From Acidimicrobiales bacterium (GTDB lineage: Bacteria > Actinomycetota > Acidimicrobiia > Acidimicrobiales > GCA-2861595): a DNA stretch of 34,734 nucleotides. Shown in pieces: positions 18,032-34,734 of the stretch; position 1 is the stretch's first letter, and each line of letters opens with the position of its first letter. Both the position numbers and the translations under genes were made by a program. The stretch lies in the NCBI GenBank assembly GCA_035540975.1, contig DATLFN010000096.1:1-34734 (forward strand), read 5' to 3'. Below the pieces are notes generated by a model, which worked only from the letters and a program-made list of their open reading frames with translations, ran no database searches and was not told where the DNA came from.

Positions 18032-18055
18032 CGCTTGTCATCAATTTGTCATCAC
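18032..18055 (+). repeat. Left arm-type integrase site (24-bp repeat)
   Basis: The sequence holds two TGTCATCA motifs in direct orientation, 12 bases apart start to start, and lies 66 bases inside attL. The identical 24-bp sequence sits 129 bases inside attR. Paired octamers flanking the core on both sides are expected for arm-binding sites of tyrosine integrases with an N-terminal DNA-binding domain. The integrase assignment is inferred. Confidence 0.75.
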
Positions 18056-18156
18056 CGTCACGCGGCCGCTGACCGTTGCTGGACCGCAGGGTCCGACGTC
18101 AGTTGGCGTCGTCGTCGGCGTGAATCGAGCAACGAGGACCCTCGGCAAAGCTCGAA

Positions 18157-18183
18157 GGCACCGTGCTCGGAGCGCACGGTGCC
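18157..18183. promoter_or_regulatory. Perfect 10-bp hairpin upstream of the DUF4209 gene
   Basis: GGCACCGTGC (18157-18166) and GCACGGTGCC (18174-18183) pair exactly around a seven-base loop. It lies 58 bases before the start of the DUF4209-like gene and within the non-coding left end (17968-18241), which otherwise holds only the arm site and the tRNA-proximal hairpin. It could be an attenuator, an insulating terminator against tRNA read-through, or a regulator site. Confidence 0.5.
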
Positions 18184-18241
18184 TGGCGACTTCGGGCGAA
18201 AATGACCCAGCACGTCGACACCGGGATGGGACCATGAGGTG

Positions 18242-19957: not shown

Positions 19958-20005
19958 ACCGGGAGCGGTGAGTCGCGACCGCCTTGGTGCACTCGTGGCT
20001 GCGTG

Positions 20006-20980: not shown

Positions 20981-20989
20981 AGATTCAGG

Positions 20990-22372
20990 CTATGCGCTGC
21001 CGGTATGTTTGTTGAATATGCGTTTGGCTACCCGCTCTGCAGCATCGCTCTGCATCGGGGGCGTGACGTGGGTGTAGATCTCCCGGGTCACAAAGGTGCT
21101 GGAGTGGTTGAGGCGGTCGCTGACGACCTTGATGTCGATGCCCTCGTGTAGCGCCAGGGTGGCCCAGGTGTGGCGGAGGCCGTGGAGGGTGAGCCTAGGT
21201 AGCCGGTCGCCGACGTGGAGCCGGTTGTACTGGTCCTGCTTGCGGAGGAACTCCCGGCTGAAGCGGTCGGGGTCGTAGGCGGAGCCGTCGGGCTTGCAGA
21301 AGACGTAGCCCTGGTCGACGTAGCCCGGCCCGACGAGGAGGCGCTCCTCGTTCTGCTGAGCCCGCCAGCGCCGGAGCATCGCCACCGTGTTGGAGTCGAG
21401 GGCGACCATGTGACCACGCTTGGTCTTCGGCAGCTCCTTCACGACGATCACGTGGTCGATCGATGTGACCTGGCGGGAGATGACCGCCGTCGCCCGGTCG
21501 AGATCGACGTCGGACCAGCGCAGTCCGAGGCACTCGCCGCGCCGGCAGCCCGTGGTGGCCACGAAGATCCACGGCGCCAGGTAACGGTTGTCGGCGACGA
21601 AAGAGAGGAAGGCGCCGAGCTGCTCGGCCGTCCAGGTCGTGCGCTGGCCGCGCATTGTCGACCCGACGGGCGGGGGAGTGGCGGCGTCGGCCACGTTGCG
21701 GGCGACACGGTTCCACCGCATGGCGTCCTTCAGGGCGGCGTGGAGGATCGAGTGGACGTACCGCACCGTCCTCGGGTTGAGCCCGGCCGGTGGCGGCACC
21801 CGCGTCGCCGGCGGGGTCTGGCGGCGGCGGTGGAGGGCGGCGACGGCGTGGCGGGTGATGCCGGCCTCGTTCGGGAAGGCCTCGGCGACGCCGGCGGCCA
21901 CCGCCGTCCAGGTGAGCCCGCTCGCCCGGAGGTCGTCGACCAGGTCGCCGACGTCGGCCGGGTGGACGTGCTTCGGCGGCGTCGCCGGGCGGCGGCCCGA
22001 CTCGAGGAGGGCCCGGTACATGGCCGTGAGGTCGAGGGGAGTGAGCTGCTGGAGAAGGATGCCGCCGATGTGCGGGACGACATGGAGGCGGACGTAGCGC
22101 CGATACGACCGGTAGGTGCTCTCCTCCAGCGTCGGGGGTGCCTGGGTTGGAAGCCACTCCTCTTCGAGGAACTCCCGGACCGTCACCCGCTCCGGTCGCA
22201 CCCACGTCCCCTTCTGGAGGGAGCTCATCGCCGCAATGCGGGCCGCCTCGGCCTCCCGCCGGGTGCGGAAGCCGCCCTTGCTGACCTGGCGGCGTTCGCC
22301 GCCGCCATCGGTGACGTACACGTAGTACGTCCAGGTGGTCCCTCGCTTGCGGACATTGCCGCGGCTACTCAT
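20990..22372 (-). CDS. int: Tyrosine recombinase (element integrase) with an internal insertion
   Basis: 460 residues from the ATG at 22372, preceded by GGAGG and overlapping the upstream regulator's stop by 8 bases. An N-terminal arm-binding domain (TWTYYVYVTDGGGERRQVSK) is followed by an SAM-like core-binding domain (VREFLEEEWLP ... HIGGILLQQLTPLDL) and the catalytic domain. Catalytic residues are R277 (TTGCRRGECLGLRW), K316 or K318 (PKTKRGHMVALD), H397 and R400 (LTLHGLRHTWATL), H423 (LNHSSTF) and the nucleophile Y433 (REIYTHV). Residues 130-196 interrupt the core-binding domain with an extra HTH-like segment. It should integrate and excise the element at the tRNA-Leu 3' end. Confidence 0.95.
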   Translation of the reverse strand: MSSRGNVRKRGTTWTYYVYVTDGGGERRQVSKGGFRTRREAEAARIAAMSSLQKGTWVRPERVTVREFLEEEWLPTQAPPTLEESTYRSYRRYVRLHVVPHIGGILLQQLTPLDLTAMYRALLESGRRPATPPKHVHPADVGDLVDDLRASGLTWTAVAAGVAEAFPNEAGITRHAVAALHRRRQTPPATRVPPPAGLNPRTVRYVHSILHAALKDAMRWNRVARNVADAATPPPVGSTMRGQRTTWTAEQLGAFLSFVADNRYLAPWIFVATTGCRRGECLGLRWSDVDLDRATAVISRQVTSIDHVIVVKELPKTKRGHMVALDSNTVAMLRRWRAQQNEERLLVGPGYVDQGYVFCKPDGSAYDPDRFSREFLRKQDQYNRLHVGDRLPRLTLHGLRHTWATLALHEGIDIKVVSDRLNHSSTFVTREIYTHVTPPMQSDAAERVAKRIFNKHTGSA

Positions 22373-23129
22373 CGTCGACCTCCTGCGCATCGGTTGCGGG
22401 CGCACGGCGGCGCCGCTTGGCTGCGGGGCGGCGCTTGGCCGCGAGGTCGTCCACGACCTGCGGGTCGAGGAAGGTACCGGGACGGTAGTTGTTGAAGGCG
22501 TTCAGGGCGTCGGCCAGACCGCGGAGGTTCTCAGCGAACGTGGCCACGTCGTCCCCCCGGCGGGGAGCACCCCGCATGCGCCGGGCGGCGAGCCCGTGGA
22601 AGGCGGCGGCGAGGACGTCCTCCGGCAGGAGGGGCGTCCGGAGCCGGGCGCCGGCGAGGGCGGCGAGGCGGTCGTCGTCGTCCAGGTTGTCTCCGGGCGG
22701 GGCTTCGACCGCCGCCCGCAGCACGTGCTCCCAGTTGGCGGCGCGCTCAGCGAGGACGGCGAAGTTGCCGCGATGGCCAAGGGCGAGCACCAGCAGGTAC
22801 TCCCACGGGAGCCCGCCCTCGGCGTCATCCGTCACGAGCTGGCCCTCGCCGTCATCGGGCGGCAGGAAGAAGAAGAGCACGGGCAGGTCGAACGTGCGGG
22901 CCAGCGCCACCAGTTCGTTGGCAGTGAACTGGCGGACCCGCTGACCGGCGACCGACCCCTCGGCCTGGGCAACCGTGGCCTGGCTCCACTTCGAGCCGGT
23001 GAACTTGCTGAGCCGCTCAGCGACCTCGGTCTGCGTCAGCCGCCGTAGCTCCCGGGCCCGAGCGAGGTTGTGTGCCACGACCTGGCTGGCGTTCCAGCTC
23101 CGGTCGCCTTGCGCTCGGGCTCTCGCCAC
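22365..23129 (-). CDS. XRE-family transcriptional regulator
   Basis: 254 residues. The N-terminal HTH_3 domain is [20 protein letters not shown] followed by AERLSKFTGSKWSQATVAQAE (shown as AERLSKFTGSK and WSQATVAQAE), then ANELVALARTFDLPVLFFFLPP, as in many XRE proteins with a LPVLFFF segment. The C-terminal half is helical and ends in a basic stretch (AAKRRPAAKRRRR). It is transcribed divergently from the excisionase-like gene across a 124-base region with an ATTACGC inverted repeat. It is upstream of and coupled to int, so it is the likely switch controlling integration, excision and mobilization. Confidence 0.85.
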   Translation of the reverse strand: MARARAQGDRSWNASQVVAHNLARARELRRLTQTEVAERLSKFTGSKWSQATVAQAEGSVAGQRVRQFTANELVALARTFDLPVLFFFLPPDDGEGQLVTDDAEGGLPWEYLLVLALGHRGNFAVLAERAANWEHVLRAAVEAPPGDNLDDDDRLAALAGARLRTPLLPEDVLAAAFHGLAARRMRGAPRRGDDVATFAENLRGLADALNAFNNYRPGTFLDPQVVDDLAAKRRPAAKRRRRAPATDAQEVDDE

Positions 23130-23213
23130 AGGGCCTCCGTCTCAGATGGGGGACAGGCGGCCGGCGGCCTGGTGTTGCGCCGTCCGCCCCGCCATTCCAT
23201 CATGTTATGAGAA

Positions 23214-23229
23214 ATTACGCCAGCGTAAT
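23214..23229. promoter_or_regulatory. ATTACGC inverted repeat in divergent control region
   Basis: ATTACGC and GCGTAAT pair around the dinucleotide CA, 16 bases in all, 24 bases before the excisionase-like start and 84 bases before the divergent XRE gene. An AT-rich TTATGA lies just upstream at 23205-23210. This is the only AT-rich palindrome in the control region and is a natural operator candidate for the XRE protein. ATTACGCCA recurs at 30863-30871 near attR. Confidence 0.6.
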
Positions 23230-23253
23230 CTTCCGAGCGAGCCGGAGGTGGCG

Positions 23254-23481
23254 ATGAGCTACGACGATCTTCCTCCCTTCCTGCGGGTCGAGCAGGCCAT
23301 GGAGCTGCTGCAGCTGGGCCGGTCGCAGCTCTACGCGCTTACCAACCGGTGGCTGGAGACGGGCGGCAAGGAGGGCATCCCGGTCGTGAAGTTCGGGCGG
23401 TGCCTGCGCATCCCCACGGCTGCCGTCCTGCGGATGGCGCTCATCCTGCCGGGCCCAGCGGGCGACACCGATGCCGCCTGA
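23254..23481 (+). CDS. Excisionase-like helix-turn-helix protein
   Basis: 75 residues. The ATG at 23254 has GGAGG seven bases upstream. The sequence FLRVEQAMELLQLGRSQLYAL is split here as FLRVEQAMELL and QLGRSQLYAL, followed by GIPVVKFGRCLRIPTAAVLRM. It has the winged MerR-like fold of HTH_17/excisionase proteins, with the wing VVKFGRCLRIP. Such proteins bind att arms or oriT-proximal DNA and act as recombination directionality factors or regulators. It overlaps the next gene by 11 bases and opens the mobilization operon. Confidence 0.82.
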   Translation: MSYDDLPPFLRVEQAMELLQLGRSQLYALTNRWLETGGKEGIPVVKFGRCLRIPTAAVLRMALILPGPAGDTDAA

Positions 23482-23806
23482 GGTCCTGATCGAGCACCAC
23501 TACCCGGCGGCACTCGCCTTCCTGCGCGCCCACGGGGGTCACTCGCTCGCGGTCCTGCACGACCTCCTGGCCCGGGCCGAGCGCCGTGACGGGGCGCTCG
23601 TCGCCCGGGCCAGCACCCGCGAGATCGCCGAGCGCCTGCAGTTCCTCTCCAAGGACACGGTGCACCGCTCGCTGCGCCAGCTGGCCCGCGCCGGCGTGAT
23701 CGAGGCGCTCGACCGGCGGGCCGGCTCGTCCTTCGCGCCGACGACCTACGTCGTCCACCTCGACGACTCCGGCATCACCGTCCTTCCCGACGGCCGATCC
23801 GCCTGA
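23471..23806 (+). CDS. Winged-helix DNA-binding protein
   Basis: 111 residues. Helices HYPAALAFLRAHGGHSLAVL and a typical winged-helix core ARASTREIAERLQFLSKDTV, then HRSLRQLARAGVIEAL, end with the wing SSFAPTTYVVHL. The recognition helix is KDTVHRSLRQL. It resembles small GntR/MarR-like or replication-type HTH proteins of actinobacterial mobile elements, but no precise family is claimed. It lies between the excisionase-like gene and the relaxase leader ORF, so it could regulate mobilization or act as a relaxosome accessory factor. Confidence 0.75.
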   Translation: MPPEVLIEHHYPAALAFLRAHGGHSLAVLHDLLARAERRDGALVARASTREIAERLQFLSKDTVHRSLRQLARAGVIEALDRRAGSSFAPTTYVVHLDDSGITVLPDGRSA

Positions 23807-23822
23807 CCACCGAGGGAGCCCC

Positions 23823-23900
23823 ATGACCCACCCGATCGCACCCCACCTGTCGCACTTCCAGACAGACGAGTGCACGGCCTCGTGCGGGACGCGGCCGTGA
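23823..23900 (+). CDS. 25-residue His/Cys leader ORF coupled to the relaxase
   Basis: The ORF has an ATG with GAGGGAG nine bases upstream. It starts MTHPIAPHLSHFQTDEC and ends ASCGTRP, with three histidines (residues 3, 8, 11) and two cysteines (17, 21). The stop overlaps the preferred relaxase start as GTGA. It sits 16 bases after the winged-helix gene. It may simply couple relaxase translation, or encode a small metal-binding or regulatory peptide. No homologue is recognised. Confidence 0.5.
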   Translation: MTHPIAPHLSHFQTDECTASCGTRP

Positions 23901-26900
23901 CCGCCCGCACCACCACGCTCAAGGGCGCCGACGCCGGCCGCTACTACGTGGAGGACCAGCTCGGCTACTACCTCGACCGGGGCGAGCCGCCCGGGCGGTG
24001 GATGGGCAGGGGAGCGGAGCACCTCGGACTTGCCGGCGAGGTGGACGAGGACGCCTTCCTCGACCTCATGGCCGGCATTGACCCCGGGCGCGGGGAGCTG
24101 CTCGGCACCCGCCATACCGAGCGCACCGTGCGCGGCTACGACGTGACCTGTTCGGCGCCCAAGTCGGTCTCGGTGCTGTGGGCCGTCGGCGACGACCCCG
24201 TGCGCGAGCAGGTCCTGGCCGGCCACGACGCGGCGGTGAACGGGGTCGTCGACTGGATCGACAGCCACGCCCACTGCCGCTACCGGGTGGCCGGCGACGT
24301 GCGGGTGTTCGACGCCGAGGGAGTCGTGGCGGCGCTGTTCCGCCAGCACACCAGCCGGGCGCTGGACCCGCAGCTCCACACCCACGCCGTCATCGTGAAC
24401 CGGGTCCTCGCGCCAGACGGTCGGTGGCTGGCCCTCGACGCCCGGACCATCAAGCGGGACCAGCGCAGCCTCAGCGCGCTCTACCACGCCGGGCTGCGGA
24501 CCGAGCTGACGCAGCGCCTCGGCGTGCGGTGGCGGGAGCCGGCCAACGGGATCGCCGAGATCGCCGGCGTGCCCGACGACGTGCTGGCCGAGTTCTCCCA
24601 GCGGTCGGAGGCGGTGGAGGCCCGCATCGAGGAGAAGCTGGAGCGCTTCACCGAAACCTTCGAGCGCGACCCGACGCCGCGGGAGCGATGGACGCTGGAG
24701 CGGGAGGCCGTGCTCGACAGCCGCCCGGCCAAGACCGAGTCCGACCCGGCGTCACTGGAGCGCGAGTGGCTGGGCCGGCTGGCCGGCCTCGACCTGACCC
24801 CTGAGAGGCTGGTCGCCGGCGCCGTGGAGGTCGAGGCCGGCATCCACCACCTCGACCGTGCCGCCGAGGCCGACCTGGTGGAGCGGGCCCTCGTCTCGCT
24901 GGCCGAGCGGCAGTCCACCTGGCGGGTCGCCGAGCTGGTCCGGGAGCTGGCGGCCGCCGTGCCGACGTCGCTGGCCGTGCCGGCCGCCGAGCTGGCCCCC
25001 TGGCTCGACCGCGTTGCCGACCAGGTCGTGGCTACCCGCATGGTCGACCTGTCCCGGCCCGTCGCCGACGGCGTCGAGCTGCGCATCGACGGCCGTCCGG
25101 TCACCGAGGGGGCAGTCGACCGGGTGCTGACACTTCCCGCGGTCCTGGCCGAGGAGGAGCGGGTCGTGACCCTGGCCGAACGGCGCACCGCCGCCGGCGG
25201 GGATGACCACGCCGTCACCGCCACGGAAGAGCTCGACGCTCCCCAGCAGGCGCTGGCCGAGGCGGTGGCGGGTGAGCGGGCGCTGGTTCTGGCCGTCGGG
25301 CCCGCCGGCACGGGGAAGACCTCGGCCCTGCGCCCGGCCGTCGACCAGCTGCGCCGGGAAGGGCGGGCCGTGTTCGGCGTGGCCCCGTCGGCCGCCGCCG
25401 CCGAGGTCCTCGGCTCGGATGCCGGGGTGGACGCCGACACCATCGACAAGCTCCTGGTGGAGCACACCCTCGACCGCCCGCCAGATCACCGTTACGCCCT
25501 GCCGGCCGGCGCGACGGTCATCGTCGACGAGGCCGCGATGGTGGCAACCCCGCGGCTGGCCGAGCTCGTCGACCTGGCCGACCGGCACGGCTGGCGCCTC
25601 GCCCTGGTCGGCGACCCGCTGCAGTTCTCCGCCGTCGGGCGCTCAGGGATGTTCGGCCACCTGGTCGATACCTTCGGCGCCATCGAGCTGGGCCGGGTCC
25701 ACCGGTTCCACCACGAGTGGGAGCGCGAGGCCAGCCTCCGGCTCCGTCGGGGGGACACCTCGGTCATCGACCTCTACGAGCAGCACGGTCGCCTGCACGG
25801 CGGTACCCCGCGGCAGATGCGGCGGGCGGTCGTCGAGCGGTGGTGGCGGGCCGTCGAGAACGGGGAGACGGCGTCGATGATGGCGCCGAGCAACGAAGCG
25901 GTGGTGGCCCTCAACCGGGCGGCGCAGTGGCGCCGGCTCGAGGCCGGCCAACTGGATCCCGAGGGCCCGTCGCTGGAGGTGGGGCAGTACCGCCTCCACC
26001 CCGGCGACCTGGTGGCCACCCGCCAGAACGACCGCAAGCTCGTGACCGATCGCCATCTCATGGTCAAGAACCGCGACCGCTGGACGGTGGAGGCGGTCCA
26101 CCGTGACGGCAGCCTGTTCGTGGCGGGCCGGACCGGCAGGGTGCGGTTGCCGGCGGCGTACGTGGCCAGCCAGGTGGAGCTGGCCTATGCCGAGACCAGC
26201 CACGCCAACCAGGGCCGCACCGTGGACCGTTCCTTCCTCTACCTCGACGGGCCCACCGGGGCGAGCGGCGTCTACGTCCCGCTCACCCGCGGCCGGGAGT
26301 CGAACGACGCCTACGTGGCGATCCAGGGGCTGCAGACCCCGGCCGACGTGTTGGCCGAGGCGCTCAGCCGGACCTGGGTCGACCGCCCGGCCGTCGCCGT
26401 GCGGGCCGAGCTGCGGGCGGAACCGGCCGGCGACGGCAGCGGCCAGCTCCTCGACGGCGCCGAGCTGCGGCGGCTCATGGAGCGGTCGGCAGAGATCGGG
26501 CGGAGCCTGGCCAGCGCCAGGTACGAGCCGGACGCCCAGCAGAAGAGACTCGACCGCCTGACCGCCGGACGGCAGGCCATGGCGCAGTCCATCGCCCAGC
26601 ACGAGGCCCAGCTCGACCAGGCGCGCCGCATCCTGGCCGAGCACGACCACCCGCTGGTGTGGCGCCTCCACCGGGCCGACGTCGAGAGCGCCCGCGCCGG
26701 GATCAAGTGGCTGCCGGGCGCTATCAAGGGGGACCGGGCCAAGCTCTCTGCAACCGATGCGCAGATTGCTCAGGTGGAGCGCAACCTTGAGCGCGCCGCC
26801 CGGCTCGCCGACCAGAAGCCGGAGCTCCTGGCCGAGCGCGCCATGATCAGCGTTCAGCTGGAAGGGGACCTCCGGGCCCGTGGCGTGTCGGCGGCCGCCG

Positions 26901-27172
26901 AGCCAGCCGTCGTCGAGACCCTCGGCCCCAAGCCGGCCGGTGGCGCCGCCGAGGCGCTGTGGTGCGACGCCGCCGCCCACGTCTCGCAGCATGAGGCGGC
27001 CTTCGGCCACTCCGGAGGCCGGTCGCGCGGGTGGCCGAACGTCGGGCTCGGGGATGACGCATACGCGTCAAGCCAGAAGGCGATGCGGGACGCCATCGAG
27101 AGGCTCGACCGGTCCCTCGGGCGTGGCCCAGAGATCGAGCCGCCCCATCGCTCGCTCGGGCTGTCGCTGTAG
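23897..27172 (+). CDS. MobF-type relaxase-helicase (TrwC/TraI family)
   Basis: 1091 residues from the GTG at 23897, which overlaps the leader ORF stop and gives the family start TARTTTLKGADAGRYYVED. A GTG at 23870 is in frame. The relaxase domain (about 1-290) has the N-terminal tyrosine pair Y16/Y17 and the three-histidine site H151, H161, H163 in HTSRALDPQLHTHAV. Helicase motifs follow: Walker A GPAGTGKTSAL (G468-T475), Walker B VIVDEAAM (D544, E545), GDPLQFSAVGRSGMF, and the C-terminal VPLTRGRESNDAYVAI. The tail (about 870-1091) is helical and charged. The protein nicks oriT and unwinds the transferred strand during conjugation. It is the defining mobilization gene of the element. Confidence 0.95.
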   Translation: MTARTTTLKGADAGRYYVEDQLGYYLDRGEPPGRWMGRGAEHLGLAGEVDEDAFLDLMAGIDPGRGELLGTRHTERTVRGYDVTCSAPKSVSVLWAVGDDPVREQVLAGHDAAVNGVVDWIDSHAHCRYRVAGDVRVFDAEGVVAALFRQHTSRALDPQLHTHAVIVNRVLAPDGRWLALDARTIKRDQRSLSALYHAGLRTELTQRLGVRWREPANGIAEIAGVPDDVLAEFSQRSEAVEARIEEKLERFTETFERDPTPRERWTLEREAVLDSRPAKTESDPASLEREWLGRLAGLDLTPERLVAGAVEVEAGIHHLDRAAEADLVERALVSLAERQSTWRVAELVRELAAAVPTSLAVPAAELAPWLDRVADQVVATRMVDLSRPVADGVELRIDGRPVTEGAVDRVLTLPAVLAEEERVVTLAERRTAAGGDDHAVTATEELDAPQQALAEAVAGERALVLAVGPAGTGKTSALRPAVDQLRREGRAVFGVAPSAAAAEVLGSDAGVDADTIDKLLVEHTLDRPPDHRYALPAGATVIVDEAAMVATPRLAELVDLADRHGWRLALVGDPLQFSAVGRSGMFGHLVDTFGAIELGRVHRFHHEWEREASLRLRRGDTSVIDLYEQHGRLHGGTPRQMRRAVVERWWRAVENGETASMMAPSNEAVVALNRAAQWRRLEAGQLDPEGPSLEVGQYRLHPGDLVATRQNDRKLVTDRHLMVKNRDRWTVEAVHRDGSLFVAGRTGRVRLPAAYVASQVELAYAETSHANQGRTVDRSFLYLDGPTGASGVYVPLTRGRESNDAYVAIQGLQTPADVLAEALSRTWVDRPAVAVRAELRAEPAGDGSGQLLDGAELRRLMERSAEIGRSLASARYEPDAQQKRLDRLTAGRQAMAQSIAQHEAQLDQARRILAEHDHPLVWRLHRADVESARAGIKWLPGAIKGDRAKLSATDAQIAQVERNLERAARLADQKPELLAERAMISVQLEGDLRARGVSAAAEPAVVETLGPKPAGGAAEALWCDAAAHVSQHEAAFGHSGGRSRGWPNVGLGDDAYASSQKAMRDAIERLDRSLGRGPEIEPPHRSLGLSL

Positions 27173-27387
27173 CCGACCGGCGCGGCACGAATGACTGTCG
27201 CACCCGGCTTGGATACTTGTAGTTGGCGGTGCCGCTTCTTCCGGACCGGCCCGGCTCGGGCGTCAGCCGAACATGCCGCCCCAGATTTCGGCGGCTCCAG
27301 ACGTTCGGTGGTCCGCAGACCGCAGACAGCGGCCCGTTAGGGTTCCGCTGGTGCCCATGGGTCAACCCCCGTCGATGGCGAGCCCCC

Positions 27388-27405
27388 TATGATCGAACAC
27401 GTGTT
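27388..27405 (+). promoter_or_regulatory. Candidate promoter and operator of the R-M unit
   Basis: TATGAT at 27388-27393 is a good -10 hexamer. A 10-base palindrome AACACGTGTT follows at 27396-27405, where transcription would begin, 15 bases before the methyltransferase ATG. No convincing -35 is visible. The rest of the 247-base gap after the relaxase (27173-27387) holds no gene. Only a short CCGCAGA direct repeat (27318-27331 region) stands out, and no oriT could be assigned. Confidence 0.4.
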
Positions 27406-27419
27406 TGTGGGTGGTCGCC

Positions 27420-29108
27420 ATGGTCAAGCCGCATCAACTGTCCCTGCTCGAGGTCCCGGTGACGCTCGCTGAGCTCACCCGTGATCCCGGCTCCGACTAC
27501 GGCGAGGTGTTCACTCGGCGCTGGATCGTCGATCTGATCCTCGACCTCGTCGGCTACACCGAGGACCAGGACCTAGGGGGCCAACGACTAGTCGAGCCCT
27601 CGTGTGGGACCGGCGCGTTCCTGGTCCCGGTCGTCGACCGCCTGATCGCCTCCTGTCGCCGGCAGGGTCGAAAGCTGGGCTCGATCGAGGGCGCCGTTCG
27701 GGCCTTCGACCTGCTCGACGCCAACGCGCAGCGGGCTCGGAAGGCGGCTGCACAGCGTCTGGAGGAGGCCGGGCTCGACCCGCCCTCGGCGGCGCGCATC
27801 TCGAGGAGCTGGGTGACGACAGGGGACTTCCTGCTCGCCCACCACGAGCCTGTCTCCGCCGACTACGTCGTCGGGAACCCGCCGTACATCCGCCTGGAGA
27901 ACGTCGAGCCGGCGGTAATGGCCGAGTACAGACGCCGGTGCCCGACCATGCGGGGGAGGAGCGACATCTACGTCGGCTTCATCGAGCTCGGCCTCGATCT
28001 CCTGGCGCGCGAAGGCAAGTTGGGCTTCATCTGTGCCGACCGCTGGATGCGCAACCAGTACGGCGCCGACCTGCGGGCGCTGGTCGCCGGATCGTTCGCG
28101 GTCGATGCCGTGCTCACCATGCATGACGTCGAGGCCTTCGAGGATGAGGTATCGGCCTATCCGGCGATCGTCGTGCTCCGCAACGGCCCCCAGGCGAGCG
28201 CTGTCGTCGCCGACGCATCGAGCCGGTTCGGCGAGCCCGAGGCGGCGAAGCTGGCCCAGTGGGCCCGCCGGCCGCGGCGGCCGGTGCTGTCTACGCCCGG
28301 CCTCCAGGCCGCTCGCCTCGGTGAGTGGTTCAACGGGGGCGACCTCTGGCCGACGGGCAGCCCCGCTCAGCTTGCCTTGGTCGCCCAGCTGGAGGCGAGG
28401 TTTCCCCCACTTGAGGACATCAGGACGGGAACAAGGGTCGGTATCGGCGTGGCCACCGGTTGCGACGACGTCTACATCACCCACGACCGAGACCTTGTGG
28501 AGAGCGACCGGCTCCTGCCCCTCTTGCAGGCAAGCGACATAACGAACGGCACGCCGACTTGGGGTGGTGGCTACCTGGTGAACCCCTGGGAGGGCGACGG
28601 CTTGGTCGACCTGGGGCGGTACCCACGGCTGCGCCGGTACCTCACCAGGAACGCTGCCCGGCTCCGCGAGCGACACACGGCACGCAAGAACCTCAGCCAG
28701 TGGTACCGAACGATCGACCGCGTGCACCCCGACCTTCAGGGGAGGCCGAAGCTCGTGCTACCGGACATCAAGGCGGCGTCGCACCCGGTCCTCGACGATG
28801 GCCGCTACTACCCACACCACAACCTGTACTTCGTGACCAGCGACGAGTGGGATCTTGAGGTGCTCGGAGGCCTCCTGCTGTCGGACGTCGCCAATCTCTT
28901 CGTGGGGGCGTACTGCGTCAAGATGCGAGGCGGGTGCTACCGGTTCCAGGCCCAGTACCTGCGGCGGATCCGTGTGCCGCAGCCCCAAGCGGTATCCGCG
29001 CGTGACCGGCGAGCGCTGAGATCCGCCTTCGTCTCGAGAGACGTTGAGGCTGCGACGGCAACTGCGTTGAGGCTGTACGGGATCCAGGATCTCCTCCAGG
29101 TCCCTTGA
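27420..29108 (+). CDS. N6-adenine DNA methyltransferase (gamma-type, Eco57I/TaqI-like N-terminus)
   Basis: 562 residues from the ATG at 27420. GTG 27411 and TTG 27405 are in frame and would suit a near-leaderless transcript. The SAM-binding motif I is LVEPSCGTGAFLVP (residues 58-70). The catalytic motif IV is NPPY at 153-156 (DYVVGNPPYIRLENV), typical of N6-adenine methylation with motif order X-I-IV. The C-terminal half (GTRVGIGVATGCDDVYI ... LVLPDIKAASHPVL ... YCVKMRGGCYRFQAQYL) is the target-recognition part found in type II methyltransferases of this class. It is followed 16 bases later by a PD-(D/E)xK nuclease gene, so the pair is read as a type II R-M system carried by the element. Confidence 0.9.
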   Translation: MVKPHQLSLLEVPVTLAELTRDPGSDYGEVFTRRWIVDLILDLVGYTEDQDLGGQRLVEPSCGTGAFLVPVVDRLIASCRRQGRKLGSIEGAVRAFDLLDANAQRARKAAAQRLEEAGLDPPSAARISRSWVTTGDFLLAHHEPVSADYVVGNPPYIRLENVEPAVMAEYRRRCPTMRGRSDIYVGFIELGLDLLAREGKLGFICADRWMRNQYGADLRALVAGSFAVDAVLTMHDVEAFEDEVSAYPAIVVLRNGPQASAVVADASSRFGEPEAAKLAQWARRPRRPVLSTPGLQAARLGEWFNGGDLWPTGSPAQLALVAQLEARFPPLEDIRTGTRVGIGVATGCDDVYITHDRDLVESDRLLPLLQASDITNGTPTWGGGYLVNPWEGDGLVDLGRYPRLRRYLTRNAARLRERHTARKNLSQWYRTIDRVHPDLQGRPKLVLPDIKAASHPVLDDGRYYPHHNLYFVTSDEWDLEVLGGLLLSDVANLFVGAYCVKMRGGCYRFQAQYLRRIRVPQPQAVSARDRRALRSAFVSRDVEAATATALRLYGIQDLLQVP

Positions 29109-29124
29109 CTCCACTCGAGGCCGG

Positions 29125-30105
29125 TTGACGCCGCCGATCGCACCCCGCACACCGAAGGCCGTCCTCCTCACAAATCCTTACTGCGCGCCGCTCCGCTCCA
29201 TGTACGACCGGCTGAGCCGTGGAAGAGCGACGAGTTGGAACCAGATCGAGGATGCGTTTCTGGCGGCGATGTCATCGTTCGACGACGGACTCCCGCCAGC
29301 CTTCAGCGGGACCGATCAGGACAAGACACGCCAGAGCAAGGAGCTGAGCGCCGCCATCCAGAATGGCAAGGGGGACTGGTTCAACAACCTCCTTGCCGAC
29401 CTCTTGGAGACGTGCTCGGGCATCGAGAGGCTGTACGTACGTCGCCGCGTGCCCGGCCTCATCATTCCCGAGCACAACCTGGACGGCGTGTACCCAGGCG
29501 ACGAGACCCGGGAGATCGAGTTCCTCCTGGAAGCGAAGATGATGGGCACTCCGAAGCATGCCAACAGTCCGGGCGAGAAGTCTGCGGGCCGCGCCGGCTC
29601 CATGGATACGGGCAAGCGGGTCAAGGAGCTGGCCTTCAAGTCGATCGACCTGAAGGGAGAGGCGGCTCGCCGGCTCGCGATGGCCGGCATGGCGCCGACG
29701 AGCGGGGGCGCCGGCGGCGGAGACCTATCGACGTGGCTCCATGGGAGTCGGCCCCGCATCTACTTCTTCATGGCGGTGCGTGTGCTGAACGACACTGATC
29801 TGGCGGCGGTCGTCCGATGGGCGGAGACCGCTGCGCAAGTGGTCGATGCAGTCGGGCTCTACTGCTACGAGCCCGTGACGGGATCGTTCACGACGTACCG
29901 TCGTCGTGGCGGCGTTCCCACCGCCTACGAACTCGAGCGCGTCCTCTACCGCGCGTGCATCGAACTCCAGGGTCTGAAAGCTGCGCCACCGCCGCCCATC
30001 CCCCATGACGTCGAGCCGAGCGCTGCAGCAAAGGCCGACGTTCTCACCGACGAAGCGAAGAAGACCGAGCCGCCCGCCGAGCGGCAGCCAGGCGTCGAAA
30101 ACTAG
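29125..30105 (+). CDS. Probable type II restriction endonuclease, PD-(D/E)xK fold
   Basis: 326 residues from a TTG at 29125. The sequence VPGLIIPEHNLDGVYPGD then REIEFLLEAKMMG gives D120 ... E136-A-K138, the PD-(D/E)xK catalytic pattern with a 15-residue spacing. The N-terminal half is helical (ELSAAIQNGKGDWFNNLLADL precedes it, written in part as GDWFNNLLADLLETCSG). The C-terminus is acidic and low-complexity (KTEPPAERQPGVEN). It lies directly after an N6-adenine methyltransferase, the usual arrangement of R-M pairs. The specificity and exact restriction family are not recognised. It could instead be another nuclease, but the context makes restriction most likely. Confidence 0.75.
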   Translation: MTPPIAPRTPKAVLLTNPYCAPLRSMYDRLSRGRATSWNQIEDAFLAAMSSFDDGLPPAFSGTDQDKTRQSKELSAAIQNGKGDWFNNLLADLLETCSGIERLYVRRRVPGLIIPEHNLDGVYPGDETREIEFLLEAKMMGTPKHANSPGEKSAGRAGSMDTGKRVKELAFKSIDLKGEAARRLAMAGMAPTSGGAGGGDLSTWLHGSRPRIYFFMAVRVLNDTDLAAVVRWAETAAQVVDAVGLYCYEPVTGSFTTYRRRGGVPTAYELERVLYRACIELQGLKAAPPPPIPHDVEPSAAAKADVLTDEAKKTEPPAERQPGVEN

Positions 30106-30113
30106 GAGGTTCG

Positions 30114-30326
30114 ATGGCGGTGTTCGTCCAGTACCTCGTACCGGTTCTGGCCGAGGTCGATCTTGCGTCAGGCCGGGTGACCCGGGTTCACGTCGAGGAC
30201 GAGGCGGTGGGCGACGCCGATGAGGTCCTTGTCATCGACGAGCCGGACGTCTCAGCTGCAGATCGCGAACGTGCCATTGCAGTGGCGGCCGAGCAACCAT
30301 GGCCAGCATGGGAGTTCGGGGGGTAG
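30114..30326 (+). CDS. Small acidic protein, copy on the element
   Basis: 70 residues, acidic, with a GGAGG site before the ATG. It ends in PWPAWEFGG. No family is recognised. A related but 5'-truncated copy lies just outside attR (30902-31033; DAEQVFVVD versus DADEVLVID, and FWPAWEF versus PWPAWEF). In both places it precedes a vapB gene, so it probably belongs to a conserved vapBC-associated cassette. The gene follows the endonuclease stop by 8 bases. Confidence 0.65.
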   Translation: MAVFVQYLVPVLAEVDLASGRVTRVHVEDEAVGDADEVLVIDEPDVSAADRERAIAVAAEQPWPAWEFGG

Positions 30327-30383
30327 AGGTCGAGCCCGGACTCCCGGACAGGACGCCGCTCGCACGAGCGAGAGGGGAGATCG

Positions 30384-30584
30384 ATGAGAACCACTGTGGA
30401 CATCGACGACGAAGCGTTGGCTGCCGCCGCGGCCGTACTCGGTACCTCGACGAAGGTCGACACCGTGAACCGGGCCCTGGCCGAGGTCGCGGCGAGGCCA
30501 CGTCGGGTCACCGCCGTTGAGCGGCTGCTCGCGGCCACAGACGATCTTGGGGATGCCGAGACCATGCAGCGAGCGTGGCGCTGA
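30384..30584 (+). CDS. vapB: VapB-family antitoxin, element copy
   Basis: 66 residues with AGAGGGGAG upstream. The N-terminal ribbon-helix-helix is MRTTVDIDDEALAAAAAVLG, then TSTKVDTVNRALAEVAARPR, the standard VapB pattern (type II VapB of PIN toxins). The C-terminal toxin-wrapping segment is DDLGDAETMQRAW. It is about 80 percent identical to the antitoxin at 31292. The following toxin gene is destroyed, so this antitoxin has no partner on the element and might neutralize the neighbouring VapC. Confidence 0.85.
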   Translation: MRTTVDIDDEALAAAAAVLGTSTKVDTVNRALAEVAARPRRVTAVERLLAATDDLGDAETMQRAWR

Positions 30585-30699
30585 GCGCCGTCGGCCGGTT
30601 CCGCGGCGGGTCGACCGGTCAGGTTCAGCGTGTCGGCGACGGGCCTCTCGGCTCGCTGGAATCACCCCTGCTGGGACCGGCCAGGGCGGCGCCGTGTGA
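30575..30699 (+). pseudogene. vapC remnant with the PIN core deleted
   Basis: It starts at the GTG overlapping vapB as in the intact pair (GTGGCGCTGAG versus ATGGCGCTAGG at 31486). From about 30645 it matches only the last 65 bases of the intact vapC: TCGGCTCGCTGG, CTGCTGGGACCGG and GGCGGCGCCGT are shared. About 300 bases encoding the catalytic acidic residues are missing, and the frame is not preserved. Similarity continues beyond the stop (TGATGTCG-CGACAC). Confidence 0.8.
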
Positions 30700-30705
30700 T
30701 GTCGA

Positions 30706-30729
30706 CGACACACCCGGCCGGGTGTGTCG
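30706..30729. terminator. Perfect 24-bp palindrome, probable bidirectional terminator
   Basis: CGACACACCCGG is followed immediately by its exact reverse complement CCGGGTGTGTCG. As RNA it would form a 10-bp stem with a GGCC loop. It lies after the vapC remnant and abuts the right arm site at 30728. The homologous stretch after the intact vapC is not palindromic. Confidence 0.6.
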
Positions 30730-30751
30730 CTTGTCATCAATTTGTCATCAC
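30728..30751 (+). repeat. Right arm-type integrase site (24-bp repeat)
   Basis: It is identical over 24 bases to 18032-18055, in the same orientation, with two TGTCATCA motifs. It is 129 bases inside attR. In a circular form, one arm site would lie on each side of the joined core, as in a P-core-P' attachment site. Confidence 0.75.
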
Positions 30752-30785
30752 TTCTCGGAAAAACTGCCTGGAAACGGCGCTACCT

Positions 30786-30871
30786 GTAATTACAAGCCGT
30801 CACGGATGACCCCTAAAAAAGTGGCTCTGACCAGCACTTATGCGAATTACATGCTATGTGACATTACGCCA
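30786..30871. promoter_or_regulatory. AT-rich segment inside attR with repeated ATTAC motifs
   Basis: GTAATTAC (30786-30793), AATTAC (30845-30850) and ATTACGCCA (30863-30871) occur in an AT-rich stretch that is unusual for this window. The last matches nine bases of the operator-like repeat at 23214. Excisionase or host-factor binding next to attR would fit, by inference. Confidence 0.4.
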
Positions 30872-30880
30872 CGGGCATGA

Positions 30881-30902
30881 GTTCAAGTCCCCCCTCCGAC
30901 AC
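30881..30902 (+). repeat. attR core (22-bp direct repeat)
   Basis: It is an exact copy of the tRNA-Leu 3' end at 17944-17965. It is not preceded by a tRNA body, so it marks the right junction of the element. The sequence immediately after it is the truncated reading frame of the small acidic protein. Confidence 0.93.
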
Positions 30903-31033
30903 ACGAGGCCGTCGGCGATGCCGAGCAGGTCTTCGTTGTCGACGGGACCGATCTCGCGGACGCTGAACAGGAGGCGGCCATCTCCGTCGCCGAAGACTCG
31001 TTCTGGCCGGCCTGGGAGTTCGGCTCGGGGTAG
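30902..31033 (+). pseudogene. 5'-truncated copy of the small acidic protein, cut at attR
   Basis: The frame from the last base of the att core reads HEAVGDAEQVFVVDG, then ISVAEDSFWPAWEFGSG and a TAG at 31031-31033. It aligns with the C-terminal 44 residues of the 70-residue protein at 30114. The first 26 or so codons are missing and replaced by the att core. No start codon or upstream signals remain. Confidence 0.8.
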
Positions 31034-31048
31034 CAGCTGGCTCGAGGC

Positions 31049-31231
31049 ATGGAACCCGCGAGCCGCGTCTACCGGTTCGTTCTCACTTTCGAGGTCGAAC
31101 CCGGCCACGATGCCTACGCCGACCCCGAGTGGGCGGCGGACGCAGCTTGGGGCGCTCTCACCAACCTGTACGGACTGCGTTCGATCTACAGCGGCATCGA
31201 GGAGCTCGACCCGAGCGAAGGTTTCTCCTGA
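31049..31231 (+). CDS. Small hypothetical protein between the truncated gene and vapBC
   Basis: 60 residues, starting MEPASRVYRFVLTFEVEPGH and ending EELDPSEGFS. It has a beta-alpha look (YRFVLTFEV, then AADAAWGALTNLYGL) and strong acidity. No family is recognised. The ribosome binding site is weak (CTCGAGGC). No counterpart exists in the matching position of the element copy of the cassette (30327-30383). Confidence 0.5.
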   Translation: MEPASRVYRFVLTFEVEPGHDAYADPEWAADAAWGALTNLYGLRSIYSGIEELDPSEGFS

Positions 31232-31247
31232 CCGCCGCGGCCGCCCC

Positions 31248-31279
31248 CTGATATCCTACGAGAGCCGTCGTGATATCAG
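31248..31279. promoter_or_regulatory. Inverted repeat upstream of vapBC, probable VapB operator
   Basis: CTGATATC (31248-31255) and GATATCAG (31272-31279) form an eight-base inverted repeat with a 16-base spacer, ending 12 bases before the vapB GTG. VapBC complexes usually autorepress by binding such repeats through the antitoxin ribbon-helix-helix. The element copy of vapB has no equivalent repeat. Confidence 0.6.
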
Positions 31280-31291
31280 ACGGAGGAGTCG

Positions 31292-31495
31292 GTGGCACGA
31301 ACCTTGGTGGACATCAACGAAGAGGCGCTGGCCGCTGCGGCGGCGGAGCTCGGGACCACGACGAAGGTGGACACCGTCAACCGGGCGCTCGCCGAGATCG
31401 CGGCCAGGCCCCGACGGCTCGCCGCGCTGGAGCGGCTCCGCACCACCGCTGACGACCTGGGCGACGCGGAGATCATGCGGGGAGCATGGCGCTAG
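31292..31495 (+). CDS. vapB: VapB-family antitoxin, intact pair
   Basis: 67 residues from a GTG with GGAGG upstream. The ribbon-helix-helix is RTLVDINEEALAAAAAELG, followed by TKVDTVNRALAEIAARPR and the C-terminal DDLGDAEIMRGAWR. It overlaps vapC by 10 bases, the normal arrangement for a co-translated TA pair. It should bind and inhibit the PIN RNase and repress its own promoter at the inverted repeat just upstream. Confidence 0.88.
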   Translation: MARTLVDINEEALAAAAAELGTTTKVDTVNRALAEIAARPRRLAALERLRTTADDLGDAEIMRGAWR

Positions 31496-31917
31496 GCCGC
31501 TACCTGGCGGACAAGTCGGCATTCGAGCAGCAGCGCCACAGCGAGGCCGCTGCCGGGTTGCTCTCGGCCCTCGCCGCCGACGGCGCACTCTTCATGACGG
31601 AGATCGTCGCCCTGGAGCTGCTGTACTCCGCCCGCAGCTCGGACGACTACGACGTACGCCGCGAGGACCTGTTGAGCCTTCCCTGGTTCCACCTGACCCA
31701 GGCGGTGGCAGCACGTGCGCTCACGGTCCAGCACGAGCTGGCCGGGCGGGGACAGCACCGCCGACCGATCCCCGATCTCCTTGTCGCCGCCACCGCCCTC
31801 GAACACGACGCGATGCTGCTCCACTACGACCGGGACTTCGATCTCATCGCTGAGGTCACCGGTCTTTCGGCTCGCTGGATCATCCCTGCTGGGACCGGTC
31901 ACGGCGGCGCCGTCTGA
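31486..31917 (+). CDS. vapC: VapC-family toxin, PIN-domain ribonuclease
   Basis: 143 residues. The PIN acidic site is visible: D9 in YLADKSAF, E44 in MTEIVALELLYSAR, D97 in IPDLLVAATAL, and D115/D117 in LLHYDRDFD. VapC toxins cleave tRNA or rRNA and are held inactive by VapB. This is the only complete toxin of three vapC-related sequences within 1.6 kb: a deleted copy lies at 30575-30699 and a 5' fragment at 32129-32175. The C-terminus (GLSARWIIPAGTGHGGAV) is the part still matched by the remnant. Confidence 0.9.
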   Translation: MALGRYLADKSAFEQQRHSEAAAGLLSALAADGALFMTEIVALELLYSARSSDDYDVRREDLLSLPWFHLTQAVAARALTVQHELAGRGQHRRPIPDLLVAATALEHDAMLLHYDRDFDLIAEVTGLSARWIIPAGTGHGGAV

Positions 31918-32068
31918 TGTCGGCGACACGCCCCGCCTCCACGAGCACCCGCCGGGAGAATAAACGGCCAAGAGGGGGCCGGGGTGAGATTGAGATGCCG
32001 TCGAAGCGGTAGTGCCGGGTACCTCCGCCGGGAGCGCCTCCAGCCTACGCTCAGCCCGGCTTCGAGGT

Positions 32069-32092
32069 ATGAGTTGAAGCCCCCCCTCCAAC
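32069..32092 (+). repeat. Third, degenerate att-like sequence
   Basis: It matches attR with its left flank (30877-30900) at 21 of 24 bases: ATGAGTTGAAGC against ATGAGTTCAAGT, then the same CCCCCCTCC run. Eleven bases later CCCTGGTCAGGGG (32103-32115) repeats a 13-base sequence found 20 bases after attL (17985-17997). It lies in the 405-base gene-free stretch 31918-32322, which otherwise holds the vapC fragment. Confidence 0.7.
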
Positions 32093-32128
32093 GTTAAGAA
32101 CACCCTGGTCAGGGGTCCCTTATTCGCT

Positions 32129-32175
32129 CTGGCGGACAAGTCGGCTTTCCGAGCAGCACCGCCACAGCGAGGCCG
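32129..32175 (+). pseudogene. Fragment of a third vapC (5' part)
   Basis: CTGGCGGACAAGTCGGC is identical to 31504-31520 in the intact vapC. The following GAGCAGCACCGCCACAGCG differs by one base from its counterpart, and one inserted C breaks the frame. Only codons for about residues 7-22 survive, and no start or PIN core is present. Confidence 0.75.
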
Positions 32176-32322
32176 ACACGAACACTTCATATGATCGTGG
32201 ATGTTCCGCCCGGCGGGCGCGAAGATGGGACCAACGGCCCTGCCAGGAAGGACCTCCGGCCCGGGCACCGTCCCCGTCGCGGCGGTTCGACTGGGAGCGG
32301 ACCTCGTGGAGGTGGATCAGCC

Positions 32323-33819
32323 ATGCGCCCAGCCAAGGTCGTGTCCGTCGTTGTCGGGTCGCTCGCCGCCCTGCTCGCCCTGGGGCTGGCGGCGGGGGGA
32401 GTGGCGCTGCTGTCCTTCCACGCCTCCGAGCGGGACGACGGCTTCTACACCACGTCGTGGGAGCGCTTCGAGACGCCGACGTACGCGCTGACGTCGGAGC
32501 GGGTCGACCTCGGCGCCGGCGGCGTGCCCTTCGACCCGGTGGACGGCGCGCAGATCTCGGCCCGGTCGAGCGACGGCCGGCCGGTGTTCGTCGGCATCGG
32601 CCGCTCGGCCGACGTGGGCCGCTACCTCGCCGGCGTGGCCAGGGACGAGCTCACCGACGTGGACTACGCACCCTTCGGGGCGACCCTCGAGCGCCACCCG
32701 GGGGAGCGGGCCCCCGCTCCGCCCGCGGAGCAGGCGTTCTGGGCGGCGTCGGCGAGCGGTCCGGGCCGCCAGGCCGCCACCTTCGACCCCGACGGCGGGG
32801 AGTGGGACGTGGTCGTGATGAACGCCGACGCATCGCGTGGCGTGTCGGTGGACGCCGCCCTCGGCGTGGACACCGGCCTCGTGCTCCCGCTCGGCATCGG
32901 GCTGCTGGTGGGCTCGGTGTCCTCGGCCGCCATCGCCGTCGTGCTCTTCGTCGTCGGGCTGCGGGGCACCGGCACGCAGCCGCAGCCCGCCGCCGGTTCC
33001 CCGTCCGCGGCCGCCAGCCCGCCGCCGACCCCGCCGCCGGCCGCGCCGCCGACGGCGCCCACGTCGCCCACCGGTGCCGCCGCCTACCCGGTACGGCTCG
33101 ACGGCCGCCTCGACGAGCCGCTGAGCCGCTGGCTGTGGCTGGTCAAGTGGCTCCTCGCCCTACCGCACCTCGTCGTGCTGGCGTTCCTCTGGGTGGCGTT
33201 CGCCGTGCTGACGGTGATGGCGGGCTTCGCCGTCCTCTTCACCGGCCGGTACCCGCGAGGGATCTTCGACTTCAACGTCGGCGTCCTGCGCTGGACGTGG
33301 CGGGTCACGTTCTACGCCTTCGCCCTGGGGACCGACCGGTACCCGCCGTTCAGCATCCACCCCGACGCCGGCTACCCGGCGGGCCTGGCGGTGGACTACC
33401 CGGAGCGGCTGTCGCGGGGGCTGGTGGTGGTGAAGTGGTGGCTGCTCGCCCTGCCGCACTACCTGGTGGTGGCCGTGTTCGGCGGCGGGTTCACCTGGTG
33501 GTGGTGGGCGGGCCGCGGCGGGGCGGCCTTCGGCGCCGGGCTCATCGGCGTCCTGGTCCTGGTGGCGGCCGTGGCCCTGGCCTTCACCGGGCGCTACCTG
33601 CCCTCGGTGTTCGACTTCGTCGCAGGGATGTACCGCTGGTCGTACCGGGTGTGTGCGTACGCCGCCCTCCTGCGCGACGAGTACCCGCCCTTCCGGCTGG
33701 ACGCCGGCGGCACCGACCCTGGTTCGGTGGTGGACGTCGCGGCGCCGCCGCCTCCCACGACACCCCTCGCCGGCGGCGACGGCGACCGGCTCCAGTCGAC
33801 GGGCGCCCCCTCCCGCTAG
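32323..33819 (+). CDS. DUF4389 domain membrane protein
   Basis: 498 residues from the ATG at 32323 with GTGGAGGTG upstream. An N-terminal helix (VVSVVVGSLAALLALGLAAG) leads into an extracytoplasmic domain of about 160 residues. A second helix (LPLGIGLLVGSVSSAAIAVV) and a Pro/Ala-rich linker follow. Two DUF4389 repeats come next, each with WLVKWLLALPHLVVL-like and GRYPRGIFDFNVGVLRWTWR-like motifs (second copy VVKWWLLALPHYLVV and GRYLPSVFDFVAGMYRWSYR). The family is common in actinobacteria and has no established function. Its stop overlaps the convergent gene by 3 bases. It marks the return to ordinary chromosome. Confidence 0.88.
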   Translation: MRPAKVVSVVVGSLAALLALGLAAGGVALLSFHASERDDGFYTTSWERFETPTYALTSERVDLGAGGVPFDPVDGAQISARSSDGRPVFVGIGRSADVGRYLAGVARDELTDVDYAPFGATLERHPGERAPAPPAEQAFWAASASGPGRQAATFDPDGGEWDVVVMNADASRGVSVDAALGVDTGLVLPLGIGLLVGSVSSAAIAVVLFVVGLRGTGTQPQPAAGSPSAAASPPPTPPPAAPPTAPTSPTGAAAYPVRLDGRLDEPLSRWLWLVKWLLALPHLVVLAFLWVAFAVLTVMAGFAVLFTGRYPRGIFDFNVGVLRWTWRVTFYAFALGTDRYPPFSIHPDAGYPAGLAVDYPERLSRGLVVVKWWLLALPHYLVVAVFGGGFTWWWWAGRGGAAFGAGLIGVLVLVAAVALAFTGRYLPSVFDFVAGMYRWSYRVCAYAALLRDEYPPFRLDAGGTDPGSVVDVAAPPPPTTPLAGGDGDRLQSTGAPSR

Positions 33820-34691
33820 TCGCCCCGTGCCGTCACCCGATCGAGGGCGGCGAGGGCGCCGTCCCGGGCGGTGGGCGGCCCCGTGTCGGCGAGCTGCATC
33901 AGGGCGAACAGGACCGCCCAGCCCCGCGCCCGCGCCGCTGCCGCCGGGTCGTCGTCGGCGTAGGCGGCGACGAACGTGCCGCGGGCCCACGAGGGGAGAA
34001 GCAGCCAGGCGGCGGCCAGGTCGGTGGCGGCGTCGCCCGCGCACAGGTCGCCCCAGTCGAGGACGCCGGCCAGGGTGCCGCCGGCCACCAGCACGTTGCC
34101 GGGGTGCAGGTCGCCGTGGACCCACACGGGCGGGCCGGGCGCCGGCGGCGCCGCACAGGCGTCGTCCCACACCCGGCGGACGGCGCGCGCGTCGACCTCG
34201 GGCGCCGCCAGCTCCAGCCGGTGCTCGAACGTGTCGGCCCGGTCGGCCAGCGGCACGCTCCGGAAGGGGTTGTAGGGGGCGTCACCGGGCGCCGGGGTGT
34301 GGAGCGTCCGGAGGAACCGGCCGAGCCGGCGGGCGGCGTCGGCCGCGGCGGTGACCTCGGTGCGGTCGGCGGAAGTCCCGTCCAGCCAGCGGACGACGGC
34401 CCATGGCCACGGGTACCCATCGCCCGGGCGGCCGGTCCGCACGGGAACGGGAACGGTGAGCGGGAGCGCGGGAGCAAGGGCGGGGAGCCACCGCTGCTCG
34501 TTGGCGGCGAGGGCGGCGGCCGCGGCGCGTCGCGGGAGACGGACCAGCAGCTCGTCGCCAAGGCGCCACAGCAGGTTGTCCCAGCCGGCCTCGACCTCCG
34601 CCAGCGGGAGACCGGCCAGGTCCGGGTGCTGGTCGGCGAGCAGCGACCGGACCAGCGCCTCGTCCACGTCGATCTCGGCCGGCGGGCGCAA
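33816..34691 (-). CDS. Aminoglycoside phosphotransferase (APH) family protein
   Basis: 291 residues, complete. The kinase-like fold shows the catalytic loop VWVHGDLHPGNVLV, the metal-binding loop GVLDWGDLCAGDAATDLA, and an N-lobe with WDNLLWRLGDELLVRLPRR. The inserted segment WPWAVVRWLDGTSAD is typical of APH relatives close to macrolide 2'-phosphotransferases. The substrate may be an antibiotic or an ordinary metabolite, and resistance should not be assumed. It is convergent with the DUF4389 gene. The 43 bases after its start, to the window end, show nothing further. Confidence 0.88.
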   Translation of the reverse strand: MRPPAEIDVDEALVRSLLADQHPDLAGLPLAEVEAGWDNLLWRLGDELLVRLPRRAAAAALAANEQRWLPALAPALPLTVPVPVRTGRPGDGYPWPWAVVRWLDGTSADRTEVTAAADAARRLGRFLRTLHTPAPGDAPYNPFRSVPLADRADTFEHRLELAAPEVDARAVRRVWDDACAAPPAPGPPVWVHGDLHPGNVLVAGGTLAGVLDWGDLCAGDAATDLAAAWLLLPSWARGTFVAAYADDDPAAAARARGWAVLFALMQLADTGPPTARDGALAALDRVTARGD

Positions 34692-34734
34692 GGCCGCGAT
34701 CCTACGGGCGGCGACGAGGTTGCCGTCGTTCAGT

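Follow-up and report, generated by a model that had tools for sequence, protein, structure and literature searches.

At the tRNA-Leu(GAG) gene of an uncultured Acidimicrobiales bacterium, two related integrative elements appear to have accumulated in tandem: an older element, E1, would have integrated and shrunk to its right end, and a related element, E2, would have integrated later, a history to which we assign a probability of roughly 0.8. E2 is followed by a remnant with an intact vapBC toxin-antitoxin pair, and parallels to this anatomy are found in other genomes. The window analysed is the whole of contig C96 (34,734 nucleotides) of a draft assembly (3.45 Mb, 171 contigs), and the anatomy is read from this one contig. 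The integration target and the principal parts of E2 are as follows.

17881-17967, forward strand: tRNA-Leu(GAG), called by ARAGORN; integration target, its 3' end forming attL (core 17944-17965)
17968-30880, no strand: inner element E2, a putative integrative mobilizable element bounded by perfect direct repeats
20990-22405, reverse strand: tyrosine integrase of E2 (Pfam Phage_integrase E=7.7e-20; SAM_3 and Arm-DNA-bind_4)
23870-27172, forward strand: TrwC-type relaxase-helicase of E2 (Pfam TrwC E=3.7e-81)
27405-30105, forward strand: type II methyltransferase of E2, with a probable restriction enzyme (PADLOC MTase_II E=2e-198, REase_II E=1e-9)
30720-30880, no strand: right arm of E2, 48% GC, containing TTGTCATCAATTTGTCATCAC, which is found again in the left arm at 18032-18055
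30881-30902, forward strand: attR of E2, an exact core copy by sequence match to the tRNA 3' end

E2 spans 12.9 kb between the tRNA gene and an exact 22-bp repeat. This 22-mer, GTTCAAGTCCCCCCTCCGACAC, is the 3' end of tRNA-Leu(GAG) and occurs exactly at 17944-17965 and 30881-30902, and no further copy of the core with at most two mismatches was found in the 3.45-Mb assembly. Besides the integrase, the relaxase-helicase and the type II restriction-modification (R-M) genes, E2 contains HTH regulators and a candidate defence gene. The tyrosine integrase, the direct repeats of a tRNA att site and the TrwC relaxase are present, and no T4SS genes were found among the larger ORFs scanned in 17968-30880. 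With an integrase and a relaxase and without recognisable secretion genes, E2 fits a putative integrative mobilizable element. The gene at 18239-19957 matches the candidate anti-phage family PDC-S39 (E=1.3e-19), so that E2 appears to have defence cargo in addition to type II R-M. Relatives of E2 are found at tRNA-Leu genes elsewhere in the order. Its integrase and relaxase are 64% and 56% identical to those of a 20.9-kb island in G209, which also carries an acidic-gene relative and the 60-aa ORF described below; the methyltransferase has a 70% identical counterpart in the G003 island, and arms homologous to the E2 right arm occur in G003 (72-78%) and G082 (86%). A viral origin of vapC or the integrase was rejected, as no relatives of either were found in viral contigs.

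The right end of E2 is formed by an inner cassette (cassette A) in the order acidic gene, vapB, gutted vapC, right arm and attR, of which the genes are the following.

30114-30326, forward strand: inner small acidic protein gene (70 aa), identified as an ORF
30384-30584, forward strand: inner vapB (Pfam VapB_antitoxin E=1.6e-9), frame intact
30575-30719, forward strand: gutted vapC, reduced to its start and a frameshifted 3' tail, without the PIN core

The inner acidic protein is 38% identical to an ORF of the G209 island and has no match to a Pfam family. In the gutted vapC, which opens with GTG at 30575, only a few codons at the start and the 3' tail are recognisable; vapC similarity is undetectable in 30586-30640, and the tail (30661-30719) is 88% identical to 31879-31937 in the outer cassette and carries a 1-nt frameshift. 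Since the catalytic core has been lost from this vapC, the inner vapB is an orphan; its reading frame has been kept, and a palindromic operator is absent upstream of it.

Outside attR lies the outer remnant (30903-32094), in the order acidic-gene fragment, 60-aa ORF, vapB, vapC and att3, from which integrase and transfer genes are gone. Its features, and a vapC fragment beyond it, are listed here.

30903-31033, forward strand: outer acidic gene, 5'-truncated, 71% identical over 128 bp to 30199-30326
31049-31231, forward strand: 60-aa ORF, function without assignment, island cargo; 69-71% identical ORFs in the tRNA-Leu islands of G336 and G209
31247-31278, no strand: inverted repeat TGATATC...GATATCA resembling a vapB operator; five related vapBC loci align here
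31292-31495, forward strand: outer vapB (Pfam VapB_antitoxin, just below cut-off)
31486-31917, forward strand: outer vapC, intact PIN toxin gene (Pfam PIN E=2.8e-12)
32073-32094, forward strand: att3, a degenerate third att and putative decayed attR of the outer element, by match to attR
32125-32175, forward strand: 5' fragment of a third vapC, 51 bp, ~90% identical to outer vapC 31498-31549, with indels

Homology to the acidic gene begins at the first base past attR, and the first ~28 codons of the outer acidic gene are missing. The 60-aa ORF was found in 5 of 397 genomes of the order; outside G209 and G336 its neighbour is a relaxase gene in G102 and an R-M pair in G277. Outer vapB and vapC overlap by 10 nt. 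VapB scores 22.2 against PF09957, whose cut-off is 23.4, and VapC matches NCBIfam TA_toxin_VapC with E=4.5e-18, below the cut-off of that model. Residues D9, E44, D97 and D115 of VapC are invariant in a three-way alignment, and we take them to be the four acidic active-site residues of the PIN domain. The operator-like repeat aligns in the outer copy, G082, G003 and L145, and most weakly in L146. With its PIN toxin, overlapping VapB and putative operator, the outer pair is predicted to be a VapBC type II toxin-antitoxin system. In L146 (2284-2720), a related vapBC (80%) has its vapC cut after ~50 codons by a repeat-rich stretch, CTCTCCACAGCCCAATGGCTGTG..., which looks like CRISPR repeats.

The two ends of the remnant are preserved to different degrees: the left att is exact and common to E2's attR, and the right att, att3, has 5 mismatches in 22, matching the core at 17/22 positions. 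When compared with attR together with 7 right-arm flanking bases, which are element arm and not tRNA, att3 matches at 23/27, a value that none of 3000 shuffles of the region attained; after att3, the best 27-mer of the window matches at 18/27. The att site follows the vapC stop by 156 bp in the case of att3, as against 182 bp in E2 and 183 bp in G003. Unlike the other arms, the outer right arm (31938-32072) has no TTGTCATC repeats, so that att3 alone marks that end. Further out, in 32191-34734, a DUF4389 gene has no strong match in same-family genomes, and the DNA past att3 may thus be foreign as well.

An initial annotation of this DNA had placed an intact vapBC between attR and a degenerate third att-like site, a PIN-deleted vapC just inside attR and a 5' vapC fragment just beyond the third site. 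All three are borne out, by the genes at 31292-31917 and the state of att3, by the loss of all but the start and 3' tail from the inner vapC, and by an alignment score between 32125-32175 and 31498-31549 that was reached in 0 of 500 shuffles. The fragment raises the question of a third accretion, in which it would be the trace of a third, oldest element or of a G082-like remnant. This possibility carries some weight, though we do not favour it: the fragment lies beyond att3, it is preceded by CCCTGGTCAGGGG, which is also present 3' of the tRNA at about 17985-17997, and it resembles the intact outer vapC only, with no similarity to cassette A. However, it is only 51 bp long with indels and a rearrangement that displaced debris of the outer vapC would explain it equally well, and the short hairpin-like motif before it may be a common post-tRNA terminator. 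There may have been two accretion events, or three if the vapC fragment stands for one of its own.

The acidic gene, vapB and the vapC tail recur in the same order on both sides of attR, and for each of them 0 of 500 shuffles reached the alignment score. The cassette order that the initial annotation had described as repeated is thus confirmed for acidic gene, vapB, vapC and att, but the outer acidic gene is truncated and the 60-aa ORF occurs in the outer cassette only. A lack of similarity outside the vapB genes, which the initial annotation would have taken as a refutation, is not what is seen, since att, the vapC tail and the acidic gene are similar as well. The annotation's proposal of related elements in tandem, with the older reduced to a toxin-antitoxin remnant of ~1.2 kb, is likewise supported, "older" being deduced from att decay and the junction. 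The like gene order and the common att core might also arise from a single element, if the outer cassette were a local duplication of the E2 right end that later diverged. Such a duplication is extremely improbable and was rejected on the basis of divergence and gene content. Inner and outer vapB share 76.9% nucleotide identity, with a synonymous divergence (dS) of 0.83 and a dN/dS of 0.16, whereas between the outer vapBC and that of G082, a genome of another family, the identity is 91.6% over 641 bp. In the latter comparison, vapB is 95.4% identical in nucleotides with zero amino-acid changes over the 195 nt (65 codons) compared, and vapC is 90% identical with a dN/dS of 0.20; identity of the outer vapC to that of G003 is 80%. 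That the outer vapBC is nearer to G082 (91.6%) than to the inner vapB (~77%) points to two elements rather than to local duplication. The 60-aa ORF, which occurs in other islands, and the operator-like repeat are both present in the outer copy and missing from the inner one. Branches are weakly supported, none of them starred, in a tree built from six vapB genes, which adds little to the identities. The low dN/dS values show the outer vapB and vapC to be under apparent selective constraint.

Close relatives of the outer vapC are rare. Among 198 relatives, vapC at ≥80% identity was found only in the genome studied here (G000), G003 and G082; a search of 85,000 species genomes gave three vapC relatives only, G003 among them, and the plasmid relatives of VapC are all <60% identical. 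In G082, vapBC lies ~250 bp after tRNA-Leu(GAG) between element-like arms, the left nearly identical to the left arm of the G209 island and the right truncated, with a TTGTCATCAAT repeat; neither attR nor an integrase was found near it. A near-same vapBC at this position in another family, without integrase or attR, would be understandable if the outer vapBC were an ancestral chromosomal toxin-antitoxin locus after tRNA-Leu, E2 having inserted between the two. This explanation is very unlikely, considering the restriction of vapC to those three genomes, the 91.6% DNA identity between families, which points to transfer, and the left and right element arms that the G082 copy retains. The same-family genomes G002, G004 and G005 moreover have no vapBC, and no outer cassette, after the tRNA. 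An ancestral origin, which the initial annotation had named as grounds for abandoning the tandem reading, is thereby disfavoured. Because the G082 vapBC retains both arms, its locus looks like a remnant itself, and it resembles the middle stage of the history proposed here.

G003, which belongs to the same family, independently shows an apparent element followed by an att-bounded toxin-antitoxin remnant. Its element, the one with the 70% identical methyltransferase, has vapBC and a right arm at its end, after which come a broken att (GTTCAAGTCC), a remnant of ~1.05 kb, a second right arm and an exact attR. The remnant contains genes for a toxin of the Gp49 type and an HTH antitoxin; each appears to be frameshifted, either by decay or by assembly error. 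The two genes were also noted in one open run (L100:4126-4938). In G005, of the same genus as G003, the sequence after the tRNA resembles that after the G003 attR, and G005 therefore looks like an unoccupied site. Within the 23-kb island of G336 lies a degenerate att that is accompanied by a left arm of the element type.

In the tandem history favoured here, E1, belonging to the element family with tRNA-Leu(GAG) as its target in Acidimicrobiales, would have integrated at the tRNA 3' end. Its left part, integrase and transfer genes included, would then have been deleted, leaving the right end (acidic-gene fragment, 60-aa ORF, vapBC and att3) flush against the tRNA. Subsequent entry of E2, with integrase, relaxase and R-M, into the intact tRNA end would give the order tRNA/attL-E2-attR-remnant-att3. 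Chance may have preserved the right end, or cells that lose vapBC may pay a penalty: VapB would bind the palindromic operator and neutralise VapC, and after vapBC loss the labile VapB would decay and the stable VapC RNase would poison the cell. Recombination of attL with attR could release E2, which a helper conjugative system might then mobilise; with five mismatches in the att3 core, excision of E2 and the remnant together through att3 is unlikely. We infer this order of events, the cause of retention and the activity of the toxin.

The outer homology starts exactly at the end of the tRNA core, which suggests that E1 had decayed before E2 arrived, as a deletion after that arrival need not have stopped at the core, a copy that no longer served as tRNA. 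One junction is thin evidence, from which we infer that E1 probably decayed first. In G003, where the core is broken, deletion probably followed the second integration. We did not adopt a deletion of E1 by integrase at a pseudo-att of the acidic gene, GTTCACGTC, the whole 22-bp core being intact at the junction and the register different. G000 is the only genome of its genus, and no intermediate-stage strain was found at that level. Co-transfer of element-CIME tandems has been reported (PMC5704250), and E2 and the remnant might have arrived as one composite unit instead of by successive integrations in this lineage. This is unlikely, as att3 is degenerate, as expected of a long-resident end.

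Toxin-antitoxin pairs are also found beside attR in other islands. Five genomes (G209, G336, G279, G126 and G204) were picked by att pattern alone, not by toxin. In G209, G336 and G279, a toxin gene and its partner antitoxin lie 244-746 bp inside attR, the pairs being Fic/Doc with RHH in the first two and PIN with Phd/YefM in the third; no such pair was detected by Pfam among the ORFs scanned beside attR in G126 and G204, the tRNA of G204 being on another contig. The expected number of toxins ≤1.5 kb from attR, derived from the PIN and Fic counts of the genomes, is 0.03 (Poisson tail 4e-6), in a test designed after the first examples were seen and with cases that are not fully independent, since G209 and G336 are in one family. 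These counts provide a lead that tRNA-Leu(GAG) islands may often end in a toxin-antitoxin pair by attR, of several types. Pairs of different families lie by attR at L137:4424-5031, L139:4647-5260 and L134:6101-6762, in tRNA-Leu(GAG) islands other than the one described here. Rather speculatively, and with more doubt than confidence, it may be suggested that these islands in Acidimicrobiales possess an exchangeable toxin-antitoxin slot by attR (VapBC, RHH-Fic/Doc, Phd-PIN, Gp49-HTH) that survives island decay, and that surviving antitoxins, such as the orphan inner VapB, may neutralise the toxins of related islands as these arrive or leave, thereby influencing which islands can stack at the site.

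Other traces of insertion were seen at this tRNA. Two complete tRNA-Leu(GAG) genes lie 8.7 kb apart in G121 (L135:1563-1650, 10237-10324) and 2.3 kb apart in G176 (L136:2073-2159, 4363-4449), suggesting islands that import a whole tRNA copy, or tRNA duplication. In G002 (L103:370-421), another partial att-like copy, CTCCCCCCTCCGACAC, comes after the tRNA-Leu end and may be a scar left by earlier insertions. Att-like matches in G028, G031, G139, G061 and G171 could not be tied to islands and were excluded.

Our literature search found no report of tandem accretion of islands in Acidimicrobiales. It has been proposed in a review that of older elements "only the TA system remains" (PMC12548467). 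The present locus clearly exemplifies a toxin-antitoxin pair that has outlasted almost all the rest of a decayed element. The independent cases at one site (the outer remnants of G000 and G003, and G082) permit a test of whether toxin-antitoxin pairs protect islands or simply sit at a protected end, and several unrelated toxin-antitoxin types share one position by attR.

In its features, the outer pair has in common with VapBC type II systems the overlapping genes for a small antitoxin and a PIN toxin and the upstream palindromic repeat, whereas its scores fall under the NCBIfam equivalog cut-offs. As a likeness, the mosAT module of SXT is a toxin-antitoxin module on an integrative element that promotes the maintenance of that element (PMC2654960); SXT, unlike the present locus, is a ~100-kb conjugative element without a tandem remnant. 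GI21/CGI48 of Shewanella putrefaciens, in which hipBA adjoins attR21 and was shown to stabilise the composite island (PMC8978831), resembles this locus as a composite island with a toxin-antitoxin pair by attR and R-M in the middle. GI21 is nested within another island and carries HipAB, whereas the present locus is a tandem at one tRNA with a predicted VapBC. For CIMEs, a three-step route of integration, decay and second integration has been described, and in ICESt1-CIME302 of Streptococcus thermophilus a decayed, att-bounded end likewise lies beside a related element at the same site (PMC5704250). As a putative CIME tandem, the locus here differs in lying at an actinobacterial tRNA-Leu(GAG), in its remnant of only ~1.2 kb and in having one degenerate att. 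The locus is a new example of this known route of tandem accretion; a toxin-antitoxin pair also stands at the end of related islands in other families.
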